Positions 47,945 to 52,907 of a stretch of 64,000 bases of DNA are shown here, piece after piece. A program made the position numbers and the translations under genes. Position 1 is the stretch's first letter. Each line of letters begins with the position of its first letter. Below the pieces are notes generated by a model that had not been told where the DNA came from, did no database searches, and worked only from the letters and a program-made list of their open reading frames with translations. Source of the stretch: Parvibaculaceae bacterium (GTDB taxonomy: Bacteria > Pseudomonadota > Alphaproteobacteria > Parvibaculales > Parvibaculaceae). Location: positions 1 to 64,000 of the forward strand of contig JARGNZ010000007.1 of assembly GCA_029209985.1 (NCBI GenBank), in the 5' to 3' direction.

Positions 47945-48427
47945 ATGTCTGATAAGCTCTCTCATCTAACCGAAGATGGTTCAGCACACATGGTTGATGT
48001 ATCGGAAAAAGACATCACAAGCAGACGGGCCATTGCAACAGCCCGTGTACGGATGAAACCGGAAACACTACAGCACGTGATAGCAGGTGATATGAAAAAG
48101 GGAGACGTGTTGGGCACCGCCCGCCTTGCGGGCATCATGGCGGCTAAACAAACACCCACCCTTATTCCTTTGTGTCACCCTTTGATGATTTCAAAAGTCA
48201 CGATTGACTTTGAACCTGATGTTGCTTCGTCCTCCATCCATGTCAAAGCAGAGGTCAAAGTATCCGGACAAACCGGGGTTGAAATGGAAGCACTCACAGC
48301 GGCCAGTGTTGCAAGCTTAACCATCTACGACATGGCAAAAGCTGTTGATAAAGAAATGGTCATTGAGGACATCAAGGTGCAACACAAGTCAGGCGGAAAA
48401 TCTGGCACCTATGAGGCGCATTCATGA
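47945..48427 (+). CDS. moaC: cyclic pyranopterin monophosphate synthase MoaC
   Basis: 161 residues from the ATG at 47945. The family is identified by [43 protein letters not shown] and [16 protein letters not shown], with the catalytic Lys in [13 protein letters not shown] near the end. It makes cyclic pyranopterin monophosphate for molybdenum cofactor. The stop overlaps the moeA start by four bases (ATGA). MoaA is not in the window. Confidence 0.97.
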
Positions 48428-49641
48428 GCGCCCTTCTCCCGGTTGATGACGCAATCGCGCGCTTAGGGGGCATGATTACGCCTCTAGGCACTGAACAAGT
48501 TCCCTTGGCGCAAGCCAATGGACGGGTCCTTGCGCATGACGTTGTTGCCCAGCGCACACAACCACCTTTCGACAATTCAGCGATGGATGGGTATGCGGTC
48601 CGCGCCGCAGACGTTGCCACTGTGCCGATACGGCTGCAGGTGATTGGGGAAGCGCCAGCCGGCGGCACCTACAACGGCATTTTGAGAGATGGTCAAGCGG
48701 TTCGCATATTCACCGGCGGACCGTTACCCGCCGGGGCTGATGCCATTGTCATTCAAGAAGATACGAACCGCGATGGCACCACTGTAGAAATTTTAGAAAG
48801 CTCTGCTGTTGGGCGGCATGTTCGCCGTGCCGGACTGGACTTTAGTCAGGGGGATGTGTGTCTCAAAGCAGGTGAGCGCCTCACACCCTACTCTATTGCT
48901 CTTGCTGCGGCAGCCAATGTGCCCACGTTGACAGTTTACCGGCAACCCAAAGTGGCTTTTTTTGCCACGGGGAATGAGTTGGTATTGCCGGGGGAAGTGC
49001 CCGGCCCCAACCAAATCGTTTCTTCTAACTCTGCTGGCATAGCCGCGTTCATCCACGCACATGGCGGTATACCGATCGATCTTGGCATTGCCCGCGACAC
49101 GCTCGACAGTATCAAAGACACCGCTGCTCGTGCGCATGACGCTGACCTTCTTCTCACCCTAGGCGGGGCTTCTGTGGGGGATCATGATTTAGTGCAACCG
49201 GCATTGACTGAGATGGGCCTCAAGGTGGATTTTTGGAAAATTGCCATGCGGCCGGGAAAGCCGTTGATGTTCGGTGACATTAAGGGACAACCCTTCCTTG
49301 GACTGCCCGGCAATCCGGTTTCAGCCCTTGTCTGCGCCATTCTATTTTTATCGTCGACCATGGCGCGTCTTTCTGGGATGCCCGCCCTGCACCCTGCTCA
49401 CATCAATGTGCAAGTCGACACTGACTTGCCGAAAAATGGTCCGCGTCAAGATTATATTCGGGCGCGCCTGCGGCAGGATGAAACCGGCGCACTCATTGCT
49501 ACCCCCGGATCACGCCAAGACAGCTCCATGCTCTCTTCTATGGCGGCGGCTGGTGGGCTGATCATCCGTGCGCCCCATGCTGGGCCTCTTGCTGCAAGGG
49601 CCACAGTTCCTCTTTTGCCCCTAAAGCTTAATGGGATTTGA
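48424..49641 (+). CDS. moeA: molybdopterin molybdotransferase MoeA
   Basis: 405 residues in four MoeA domains. N-terminal NGRVLAHDV and the [11 protein letters not shown] motif near residue 44, [16 protein letters not shown] near residue 96, then the MoaB-like active domain with [32 protein letters not shown] and [15 protein letters not shown], and the signature [11 protein letters not shown] near residue 300. It inserts molybdate into adenylated molybdopterin. Coupled to moaC upstream; 240 bases separate it from lexA, which has its own regulated promoter. Confidence 0.96.
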
Positions 49642-49659
49642 TTTATCCACAGAAAGCGG

Positions 49660-49688
49660 TTGACGATTCAGAAGAACCAAAGTAGAAC
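49660..49688 (+). promoter_or_regulatory. lexA: lexA promoter, -35 TTGACG and -10 TAGAAC
   Basis: TTGACG (49660-49665) and TAGAAC (49683-49688) are spaced by exactly 17 bases. The SOS box at 49674-49688 covers the spacer and the -10, so LexA binding would block RNA polymerase. A leader of about 185 bases to lexA would follow. Confidence 0.55.
49674..49688 (-). promoter_or_regulatory. SOS (LexA) box 1, perfect GTTC-N7-GTTC
   Basis: Reads GAAC-CAAAGTA-GAAC on the plus strand, i.e. GTTC-N7-GTTC on the minus strand, the direct-repeat LexA box of alphaproteobacteria. It overlaps the candidate lexA -10. Confidence 0.75.
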
Positions 49689-49698
49689 AGATTTGGAC

Positions 49699-49713
49699 GT
49701 TTTGGTTTTGTTC
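49699..49713 (+). promoter_or_regulatory. near-match SOS box, GTTT-N7-GTTC
   Basis: One base differs from the alphaproteobacterial LexA consensus. It lies 11 bases downstream of box 1 and may be a weaker operator or chance. Confidence 0.4.
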
Positions 49714-49794
49714 CTGTGGGGTGATTTGCAGAATAACTTAACCAAAATTAAGAATCTGACTGACTGGATGGACACAAAGCAGAAATTTCTCTTT

Positions 49795-49809
49795 GTTCCC
49801 AAGGGGTTC
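49795..49809 (+). promoter_or_regulatory. SOS (LexA) box 2, perfect GTTC-N7-GTTC
   Basis: GTTC-CCAAGGG-GTTC, a perfect direct repeat with 7-base spacing, 73 bases before the lexA ATG. It supports autoregulation at two sites, perhaps with a second promoter near it. Confidence 0.75.
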
Positions 49810-49881
49810 TAGGCCCACTTTATTGGGTGTTTCTTGGATCGCTAGATTTGCCAGTACCGATATTTTGGAGGAACGCGAGTA

Positions 49882-50604
49882 ATGCTTACACGCAAGCAGC
49901 ACGAACTTTTGATGTTCATCAACGAGCGTTTGAAGGAAACAGGCGTTGCCCCTTCCTTCGATGAAATGAAAGAAGCCTTAGACCTACGGTCCAAATCGGG
50001 CATTCATCGGTTGATTACCGCTTTGGAAGAACGCGGCTTTATTCGGCGTTTGGCCCATCGGGCGAGAGCATTGGAAATCCTCAAATTACCGGAATCGTCT
50101 TCCCCTGCCCTTGGTCACGGTGCCCCCGCGACGACAGGCTTTTCACCCAGCGTTATTGAAGGCAGTCTTTCAAAACAATCATCGACTGGGGCTGATGCCT
50201 TTAATTCTGCCAATGAAAATGATGCCATGAATGTTCCCGTGATGGGGCGCATTGCGGCAGGGACACCAATCGAAGCCCTACAAGAAGAAAGCCACCAAGT
50301 AAGTGTGCCGATGTCTATGATGGGCAACGGCGATCACTATGCTCTTGAGGTCAAGGGTGACTCAATGATTGATGCGGGTATCTTGGATGGTGACACGGTG
50401 ATCATCCAGCGTTGTGACACGGCAAACAATGGCGAGATTGTTGTGGCACTTGTAGAAGGACACGAAGCAACGCTTAAACGCTTGCGCCGCAAAGGGGGTT
50501 CCATTGCTTTGGAAGCTGCAAACCCAGCTTACGAAACACGTATTTTTGGGCCAGACCAAGTTAAAGTACAAGGCCGCCTTGTCGGCCTAATGCGTCGCTA
50601 CTAA
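49882..50604 (+). CDS. lexA: SOS repressor LexA
   Basis: 240 residues. N-terminal winged helix ([12 protein letters not shown]...; recognition helix near residues 38-50, [18 protein letters not shown]). A long linker (about 71-115) is typical of alphaproteobacterial LexA. Self-cleavage parts: Ala126-Gly127 in GRIAAGTP, Ser161 in KGDSMIDAG and Lys199 in EATLKRL. RecA-driven autocleavage inactivates it. The strong GGAGG ribosome site is at 49867-49871. Two perfect SOS boxes and one near-match upstream indicate autoregulation. Its stop overlaps the last codon of the comEC tail on the other strand. Confidence 0.97.
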
Positions 50605-50795
50605 TCTTTATACGTCTTATTCTGAATGTGCGCTTTGCCGATTGTCCAAGGCCGATCTCCCTGCGCAGTGCGTACCGCCTCCACCTTCCAGCCGAGTGTT
50701 TTTCTCGTTTGATCGGTGAGGAACAATGCATGGGCCCCATTTCTGGCTAGGCTTCCCCTATCGATGATTTTGGTGCTTTTACATAACGCCCTCAT
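50601..50795 (-). pseudogene. C-terminal tail of ComEC, separated by an in-frame TAA
   Basis: 64 codons in the same frame as comEC, directly after its TAA at 50796-50798 (the junction reads TGG-TAA-ATG). The sequence LCKSTKIIDRGSLARNGAHALFL followed by VEAVRTAQGDRPW matches the expected end of alphaproteobacterial ComEC proteins (IDR, NGAHAL, GDRPW). It ends with TAG overlapping the lexA stop by four bases. It could be a lost piece of a decaying comEC, be re-initiated at the ATG right after the stop, or reflect a sequencing error. Confidence 0.7.
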
Positions 50796-52907
50796 TTACC
50801 AAGAAGAATAAAACCGCGCAACAATAACATCTGCATGTGTGCAATCTTCTCGCCAACTTGTTGGACCATTGAGAATGACAACTGTTGGCCGCATTTTTTG
50901 GACAAATGAACAGCCACGCGGATCGCAGCTCACATGCTCACTTTCGCTCAGGGCCGTTTTGGGATGACGCACATCTCCTGTTCGGCGCAACCAATTTTCC
51001 ACCACAAAAAAGGGCGTTGCGGCGGTTAGTTCATACTTGCCCTCTTCGGCCTTGACCGCGATCACCTTCCCTTCCCGGTCGATGAGAACATCGGGCGCGG
51101 CAAGTGTCCAACTTAATGCGAAGCCAAGGCAAATGGGCACGACCCCCGCCCAGCGCCATGCGTGCTTCCACAAGCTCAGCCACACCCCCCCGCCAACCGT
51201 TATCATCAACACCCAATCGGGTTGAGTGGGCAATGTCTGGAGAGCATGAGGCAAATGTGCCACCCAATGCGCCACCCATAGCATCGCCGCCACGCCCTGC
51301 TCCATCACCCACAAAGGCGCTGCCTCAGCCCCAACGGGCATCAGGATCAATGCCATAATAGCCGCAGGCATCACCACAAAACCTAATAACGGAAGGGCCA
51401 GAAGGTTGCCTAGCAAGCCATAACTTGCCACACGGTTAAAGTGATATTGCGCAAAGGGAGCTGTCGCAAGCCCGGCAATTAAGCTGGTTGCTAAAAGTCC
51501 TCCGGCATAGCCCCCTACTTTACGAGCTGGTGTCCAAAACTTATCTTGCAAGCCCGCCCCATCATTACTCCGTAGGCGGTGTATTTTATCTCCTGCCTTT
51601 TCGTAAAATGATATAAGCGCAATGACTGCAGCAAAAGACATTTGAAAGCTCGGCCTCAATACGCTTTCTGGGGCGATCATCATGATGGCGATTGCGGCCA
51701 AGGCCACATTGCGCAAAGACAATGCGGGCCGGTCAAACAAGATCGCCAGAAACATGAGGCACACCATGATGTAAGCACGTTGGGTGGCAATTGCGCCGCC
51801 AGAAATGAGAAGATAAAAAGTTGCCCCACTTAGGGCCAATATGGCCGCTGCCTTTTTCACAGGATAGCGCAGCACCAATACTGGAAATAGAGCGAGCACC
51901 ATTCGCAAGCCTGTAAAAAGCACACCGGACACCAATGCCATATGCAATCCAGAAATTGCTAAAATATGCGCAAGGCCCGCAGTCCGTAAATTCTGCGCGG
52001 TTTCTGGATCAATCAAATCTCGGTCGCCGGTGATCAAGGCAATGGCGATTGGGGCTGTGTCAGGGGACATGGCACGTTCAATTTTTTGAGCGATTGACGT
52101 GCGTAGTTTTTCGATATCCACAGAGGGCCAAAATTGCCACTCGGTTCTCTTGGTGTTTTTAGCAACAATGGTCGGCGTGCCCATAATAAAGCCAGTGGCG
52201 CCAATTCGTTTGAACCATGCATCGCGGGCAAAGTCATAGGCGCCGGGGGCCACCGGCCCAGCGGGGGGCCACAGTCTTGCGAGGGCCTCGATCTCATCGC
52301 CAATTTCTGGCACTTGCTTTTTTGACCCGAGGGTAACTCGTATGAGGGCGGGCAATTCGTCTGGTTTTAGGTGTTCAATTTGCAGGGGCTGGATGTGCAA
52401 TCTTGCACGGCCTGTACGGGTCGCGGACACGTCAATAACCGAGCCTTTCAGCCGTGCAAAGCTGATTTCTTTCTCAATTTTGGGCGCAGAGCGCACGTAA
52501 GAACGCAGCTGTGCGGTGCTCATCCCCAAAACCGGGATCAAAACCAGCACCAAAAGCGGGATACTAAATTTCTTTATCCCTTCCCCACGTGCGCCCTGCG
52601 TACCTCTGACAACTCCCCCAACGAGCAGCAAAACAAGAGCGCCCATCCAAAACCCAGACGGCTCACTCGGCAGCCCAAAATAAATGACAATCCCGGCTGC
52701 GAAGAGTACAGGAATCCAGAGCGCCCATTGGTCCTGCTCATTACCTATTTGGCGGGCAATCCAAAGGGCCAATTTCTGAGGCAAAAAGAGCGAGTCACTT
52801 GGTCGCCACCCCGCTACGCCTCCTCTGCCCGTCTTTTGCACATCATGATTTTCCGTTTTCGCCTCCCAAATCGGAACAAAACATGATCTTTTTGGGTCTG
52901 GCACCAA
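50796..52907 (-). CDS. comEC: ComEC/Rec2-type DNA uptake channel protein, lacking its C-terminal tail
   Basis: 703 residues up to an in-frame TAA. After an N-terminal DUF4131-like region with several helices, the Competence domain is recognised by IALITGDRDLI, LAHILAISGLHMALVSG (the ISGLH motif) and many membrane helices; the C-terminal part is a reduced metallo-beta-lactamase-like domain (DVLIDREGK..., WLRRTGD, SCDPRGC, EDC..ADVIVARF) without metal histidines. ComEC moves single-stranded DNA across the inner membrane. The usual last 60 residues follow after the stop (50601-50795). The TTG start at 52907 is uncertain: no ATG or good ribosome site exists before the first helix. Natural competence cannot be concluded. 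Confidence 0.8.
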   Translation of the reverse strand: MVPDPKRSCFVPIWEAKTENHDVQKTGRGGVAGWRPSDSLFLPQKLALWIARQIGNEQDQWALWIPVLFAAGIVIYFGLPSEPSGFWMGALVLLLVGGVVRGTQGARGEGIKKFSIPLLVLVLIPVLGMSTAQLRSYVRSAPKIEKEISFARLKGSVIDVSATRTGRARLHIQPLQIEHLKPDELPALIRVTLGSKKQVPEIGDEIEALARLWPPAGPVAPGAYDFARDAWFKRIGATGFIMGTPTIVAKNTKRTEWQFWPSVDIEKLRTSIAQKIERAMSPDTAPIAIALITGDRDLIDPETAQNLRTAGLAHILAISGLHMALVSGVLFTGLRMVLALFPVLVLRYPVKKAAAILALSGATFYLLISGGAIATQRAYIMVCLMFLAILFDRPALSLRNVALAAIAIMMIAPESVLRPSFQMSFAAVIALISFYEKAGDKIHRLRSNDGAGLQDKFWTPARKVGGYAGGLLATSLIAGLATAPFAQYHFNRVASYGLLGNLLALPLLGFVVMPAAIMALILMPVGAEAAPLWVMEQGVAAMLWVAHWVAHLPHALQTLPTQPDWVLMITVGGGVWLSLWKHAWRWAGVVPICLGFALSWTLAAPDVLIDREGKVIAVKAEEGKYELTAATPFFVVENWLRRTGDVRHPKTALSESEHVSCDPRGCSFVQKMRPTVVILNGPTSWREDCTHADVIVARFYSSW

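Follow-up and report, generated by a model that had tools for sequence, protein, structure and literature searches.

A predicted DnaA box beside an inverted LexA operator pair at the lexA promoter of a Rhodobiaceae/Parvibaculum-group alphaproteobacterium

The lexA promoter described here, which belongs to an alphaproteobacterium of the Rhodobiaceae/Parvibaculum group, carries an inverted pair of LexA operator motifs and, next to its predicted −35 hexamer, a single conserved 9-mer that is very likely a DnaA box. Reading from the sequence, we consider this to be probably a self-repressed promoter with two inputs, LexA acting through the operator pair and DnaA acting with either sign. LexA would occupy the inverted pair, one operator lying over the −10 region and the other just past the predicted start, and would repress its own gene until DNA damage triggers its self-cleavage. 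DnaA, bound at the single box beside the −35, would modulate the promoter, most likely by aiding RNA polymerase, and the resupply of LexA would then track replication initiation or the level of DnaA. The safe part of this mechanism is LexA autorepression via the operator pair, where both binding and autorepression are what knowledge of the LexA family would predict.

Positions are those of the window, the whole 64-kb stretch of DNA that was analysed. The gene at 49882–50604 on the plus strand encodes a protein of 240 amino acids that matches TIGR00498 above its cut-off (180 bits versus 111). This supports the first-pass annotation, which had called the region a lexA control region, and places a LexA orthologue directly downstream, as expected of an alphaproteobacterial LexA-autoregulated promoter. 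On the upstream side lies a gene for a MoeA-like molybdotransferase (48424–49641, plus strand), whose NCBIfam matches were under their cut-offs (best PRK10680, E 2e-106). The predicted −35 hexamer, TTGACG (49660–49665, plus strand), and −10 hexamer, TAGAAC (49683–49688, plus strand, predicted from sequence only), are separated by a 17-base spacer, and the annotation had correctly seated box 1 on this pair. A probable ribosome binding site, GGAGG, was recognised in the sequence at 49867–49871 (plus strand). TTGAC is present in 30/30 family loci. Outside the family, TTGA[CT] together with box 1 (≤2 mismatches) was found in 95/105 class loci among the matches listed. A second set, the named loci (the best 80 of 556, a list that leans to close relatives), includes 76 from outside the family, and in 65 of these the sequence directly at box 1 is TTGCG or TTGCA. 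A simple sigma-70 scan that requires T at the sixth −10 place reported no promoter in 49600–49900, and the lexA promoter is therefore a prediction backed by conservation.

Several smaller features of the gene and its leader were recorded. Measured from where box 1 begins to the ATG, the leader is 208 and 190 bases long in the window's genus and 149–164 bases in 5/7 genomes of genus g3, and is shorter (59–95 bases) in the other 23 family loci; the leader stretch in the window is 49714–49881. Two weak terminator-like hairpins lie at 49804–49828 (2 found versus 0.4 in shuffles). A structured leader RNA was considered and rejected, as the folding energy of 49695–49890 equals that of shuffles (z 0.06) and Rfam gave no match in 48400–51200. 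At locus L005 (the lexA of genome G004), the lexA match contains one in-frame TGA, and L003 from the same genus has an open frame. Between the −35 and operator 1, GATTC at 49665–49669 forms a GANTC site of the CcrM type; GANTC at this promoter is not remarkable in the family (15/30 loci versus 11.3 in shuffles).

Operator 1 (box 1, GTTCTACTTTGGTTC, 49674–49688, minus strand) is a GTTC-N7-GTTC motif that overlays part of the −35/−10 spacer and contains the −10 hexamer. It is conserved in 30/30 family loci, as befits an alphaproteobacterial LexA-autoregulated promoter, with its conserved operator over the core promoter. Operator 2 (box 2, GTTTTGGTTTTGTTC, 49699–49713, plus strand), likewise present in 30/30 family loci, runs in the opposite orientation to operator 1; in the window the two start 25 bp apart, and operator 2 begins 10 bases past the −10, directly downstream of the predicted transcription start. 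The inverted pair recurs, with starts 24–26 bp apart, in all 30 aligned family lexA promoters. Box 2 has the form GTTT-N7-GTTC, and because its first half is GTTT in all 30 loci, this near-match is the family's normal form. We also applied a looser definition of the pair (box 1 with ≤1 mismatch; box 2 as GTT[CT]-N7-GTT[CT] with ≤1 mismatch; starts 20–30 bp apart). Found at spacings of 21–27 bp, the looser pair was present in 30/30 family loci, in 89/105 other class loci among the matches listed, and in 80/80 named loci (the best 80 of 556, four of them family members again), and was never seen in five shuffles per locus. Boxes 1 and 2 are conserved far beyond chance.

GTTC-N7-GTTC occurs four times in the 64-kb window versus 1.76 expected, a count reached by 11/100 shuffles, and 55 times (22 + 33) genome-wide versus 159 (87 + 72) for the reversed control. 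Since the pattern is enriched in neither the window nor the genome, a perfect match alone means little, and conservation must decide. The motif agrees with the one cited for Caulobacter in the available part of PMC12700426. As far as the accessible portions of the literature describe alphaproteobacterial lexA autoregulation, the window shares its gene, its motif and an operator over the promoter, and adds the inverted operator pair and the DnaA box by the −35.

The DnaA box (TTATCCACA, 49643–49651, plus strand) ends 8 bp upstream of the −35 and 22 bp before box 1, outside the coordinates and claims of the first-pass annotation. The exact 9-mer is present in 36/36 family genomes with sequence upstream of lexA; 30 of these were read directly, and six (G025, G029 and G032–G035) were placed by coordinates, 88–120 bp before lexA. 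When the 30 family loci are aligned, every column of the box is invariant (identity 1.0), against 0.52–0.55 across the 30 bases upstream, and the gap between the box and TTGAC is 5–8 bp, so that the box keeps a fixed place by the promoter, as would be expected of a DnaA-regulated promoter. Searching 37 family genomes for the box followed by a short spacer (5–9 or 4–12 bases) and TTGAC returned 41 matches, 36 of them at lexA, one per genome; G006, the one family genome lacking a match, has a completeness of 68% and likewise yielded no lexA. The perfect 9-mer occurs 18 times in the window's genome versus 23 times for the reversed control, and because these counts are about equal, it is the place of the 9-mer, not its number, that is remarkable.

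TTATCCACA is the DnaA consensus. The window's genome encodes a DnaA with the box-binding domain (PF08299, 110 bits), which a DnaA-regulated promoter would need; TIGR00362 gave 112 bits over the 69-residue DnaA domain supplied, under its full-length cut-off of 343.9. The same 9-mer occurs twice, 156 bp apart, beside hemE (G000:C49 at ~23.4 kb; L302:1875–2039), a gene named from a 50-residue stretch. The hemE neighbourhood is the usual site of the alphaproteobacterial replication origin, and the paired boxes there are likely the origin. Because the genome encodes a DnaA with a box-binding domain and carries the 9-mer twice beside hemE, the 9-mer is very likely the DnaA box of this organism. Single perfect copies also lie upstream of uvrC (L309:967–975; a weak match over a 50-residue stretch) and of a gene (L305:1028–1036) that, by its N-terminus, looks like topA.

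Outside the family, lexA upstream regions were read in 105 of the 176 class genomes with a LexA match; these were the best-scoring rows, one to three per family, and not a random sample. Ten without a recognisable TTGA[CT] plus box 1 were left out of the DnaA count, giving 95 anchored promoters. Among the matches listed, 12/95 promoters, from ten families, carry a DnaA-like box (≤1 mismatch) within the 38-nt stretch at the −35; four of these boxes are perfect. In 200 shuffles the mean was 0.4 and the maximum 3; a distal stretch of equal length gave 2, and 300 permuted motifs gave a mean of 0.44 and a maximum of 5. DnaA-like sites anywhere in these upstream regions numbered 21, of which ten end no more than 10 bp ahead of the −35. 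In a motif-free test, TGTGGATAA tied for top 9-mer, in 9/62 families, where shuffled sets reached 8 in 3/40 and 9 in 0/40; taken alone, this is a modest result. A class-wide pattern search for a perfect DnaA box 8–38 bases before box 1 matched 14 of 385 genomes (five from the family, four at lexA elsewhere and five without a recognisable lexA behind), and the reversed control matched three. Inside other families the perfect pattern varies, occurring in 1/17, 7/15 and 4/23 genomes.

An alternative is ordinary lexA autoregulation alone, with TTATCCACA kept as an upstream promoter element, as the site of another regulator or as a titration site. The operator pair is class-wide, while the DnaA-like box is missing in 83/95 class promoters among the matches listed and in 76/76 outside-family named loci from the best 80 of 556 (mostly Rhizobiales; ≤1 mismatch within 320 bp, one locus having only 109 bp upstream). 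We nevertheless regard this alternative as rather unlikely, given that the 9-mer is exact in every family genome with lexA upstream sequence and matches the DnaA consensus, and that outside the family a DnaA-like 9-mer occurs in either orientation and recurs at the same place in ten other families. The window has a single DnaA box at lexA, in contrast to E. coli DnaA, which prefers pairs of close sites according to the available part of PMC11317965.

Within the two-input reading, the opposite sign would have DnaA repress lexA by crowding the −35, as reported for E. coli uvrB; its share lies inside the probability given to that reading, and we think it unlikely. The accessible text of PMC6015884 reports E. 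coli uvrB, recN and dinJ as jointly repressed by DnaA and LexA, and other families include lexA promoters in which the DnaA box touches the −35. The box in the window, however, stops short of the −35, as do its counterparts in the 30 aligned family loci. It lies upstream of the −35 and overlaps neither hexamer, which suggests help to RNA polymerase over blocking. To judge from the portion of that source available, the E. coli cases resemble the window in that a single promoter region contains sites for both DnaA and LexA. They differ in that the E. coli targets are SOS effector genes that DnaA represses, whereas the target in the window is the SOS regulator itself, and in that the DnaA box of the window, unlike the E. 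coli system, does not overlap a LexA operator.

The first-pass annotation had reported SOS motifs at 49674–49688 (minus), 49699–49713 (plus) and 49795–49809 (plus), all of which are present, and had proposed that the outer two, 121 bases apart, allow looping or serve two promoters. Its view that the region holds several SOS boxes stands insofar as at least two operator motifs are conserved, but the conserved second motif is the imperfect box at 49699 and not the perfect one at 49795. When related lexA leaders were compared, box 3 (GTTCCCAAGGGGTTC, GTTC-N7-GTTC, 49795–49809) was found in 1/30 family promoters, that of the window genome only. In the sister species, Rhodobiaceae bacterium NORP139 (L045, 96% identity), the same position reads ATTTCCAACGGGT followed by a gap, and the box is absent; the next named relatives include a Parvibaculum species (L048, 77% identity), both comparisons being drawn from the best 80 of 556 named loci.

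Scoring also sets box 3 apart. A matrix made from lexA operators, by its design biased towards boxes 1 and 2, gave box 3 a score of 6.4 bits and a rank of 40 among 55 genome matches. Under the same matrix, box 1 and the sites upstream of recA (13.5 bits), ssb (14.7 bits), a comM-like gene (16.0 bits) and a presumed ribonucleotide reductase gene (12.7 bits) spanned 12.7–20.9 bits. A matrix from box 1 alone gave box 3 a score of 8.1, near the comM-like site at 8.7, whose margin was nearly gone; all others scored 13.0–23.4, the recA, ssb and reductase sites staying at 13.0–14.9. The names of these genes come from short N-terminal stretches: RecA was slightly under its cut-off and SSB above, the comM-like gene matched only as ChlI, under cut-off, and the presumed reductase was without a Pfam match. 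Box 3 was rejected as an operator on its near-absence from the family, its absence in the sister species and its matrix rank; it is most likely a chance match, and under our best explanation the 49795 site plays no part in lexA control. Operators at 49674 and 49795 acting by looping or serving two promoters are very improbable even though boxes 1 and 3 are both perfect motifs, because the distal site is not conserved, the 121-bp distance corresponds to 11.5 turns at 10.5 bp per turn (half-integral and out of phase for simple looping), and the sigma-70 scan, which also misses the predicted main promoter, gave no promoter near box 3.

The place that the DnaA box occupies in the window's family is enriched for a different motif in the named loci. 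Of the 76 outside-family named loci (L049–L124, mostly Rhizobiales), 74 could be anchored. Of these, 18/74 (from the best 80 of 556) have a CtrA-like TTAA-N7-TTAA site (≤1 mismatch) within the 40 nt preceding the −35, versus 2.7 in shuffles (maximum 7) and 1/73 in a distal stretch; the site ends 3–4 bases before the −35 in 18/18. At two mismatches, the count was 50/74 (again from the best 80 of 556) versus 15.4 in shuffles (maximum 29) and 4/73 in the distal stretch. GANTC occurs between −40 and +90, mostly 40–50 bases past the start of box 1, in 54/74 named loci from the best 80 of 556, versus 26.2 in shuffles and 26 in an upstream control. The CtrA counts are not independent, because the species are closely related. 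Among the 95 TTGAC-type class promoters, CtrA-like sites numbered 0 at one mismatch and 8 at two, both below the shuffle means (1.7 and 10.1). For Dinoroseobacter shibae, the available part of PMC6473078 reports a CtrA site predicted in silico at lexA; it and the site in the window are both those of cell-cycle regulators, CtrA in D. shibae and DnaA here. We suggest, tentatively, that the stretch upstream of the lexA −35 could be a swappable cell-cycle input, taken by DnaA in the window's family and in scattered lineages elsewhere, and by CtrA with nearby GANTC in Rhizobiales. If this is true, the replication cycle would set how high the SOS repressor can rise, and with it the threshold at which the damage response starts.

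DNA damage and replication have a physiological link, but accounts of the SOS repressor gene usually place it under LexA control alone. In the portion of the open-licence literature available, we found no report of a DnaA box at lexA. Our analysis corrects which boxes matter at the lexA promoter. The predicted DnaA motif there may tie the damage response to chromosome replication, and a DnaA box kept letter for letter at the family's lexA promoter would wire the replication initiator directly, and transcriptionally, to the SOS set point.
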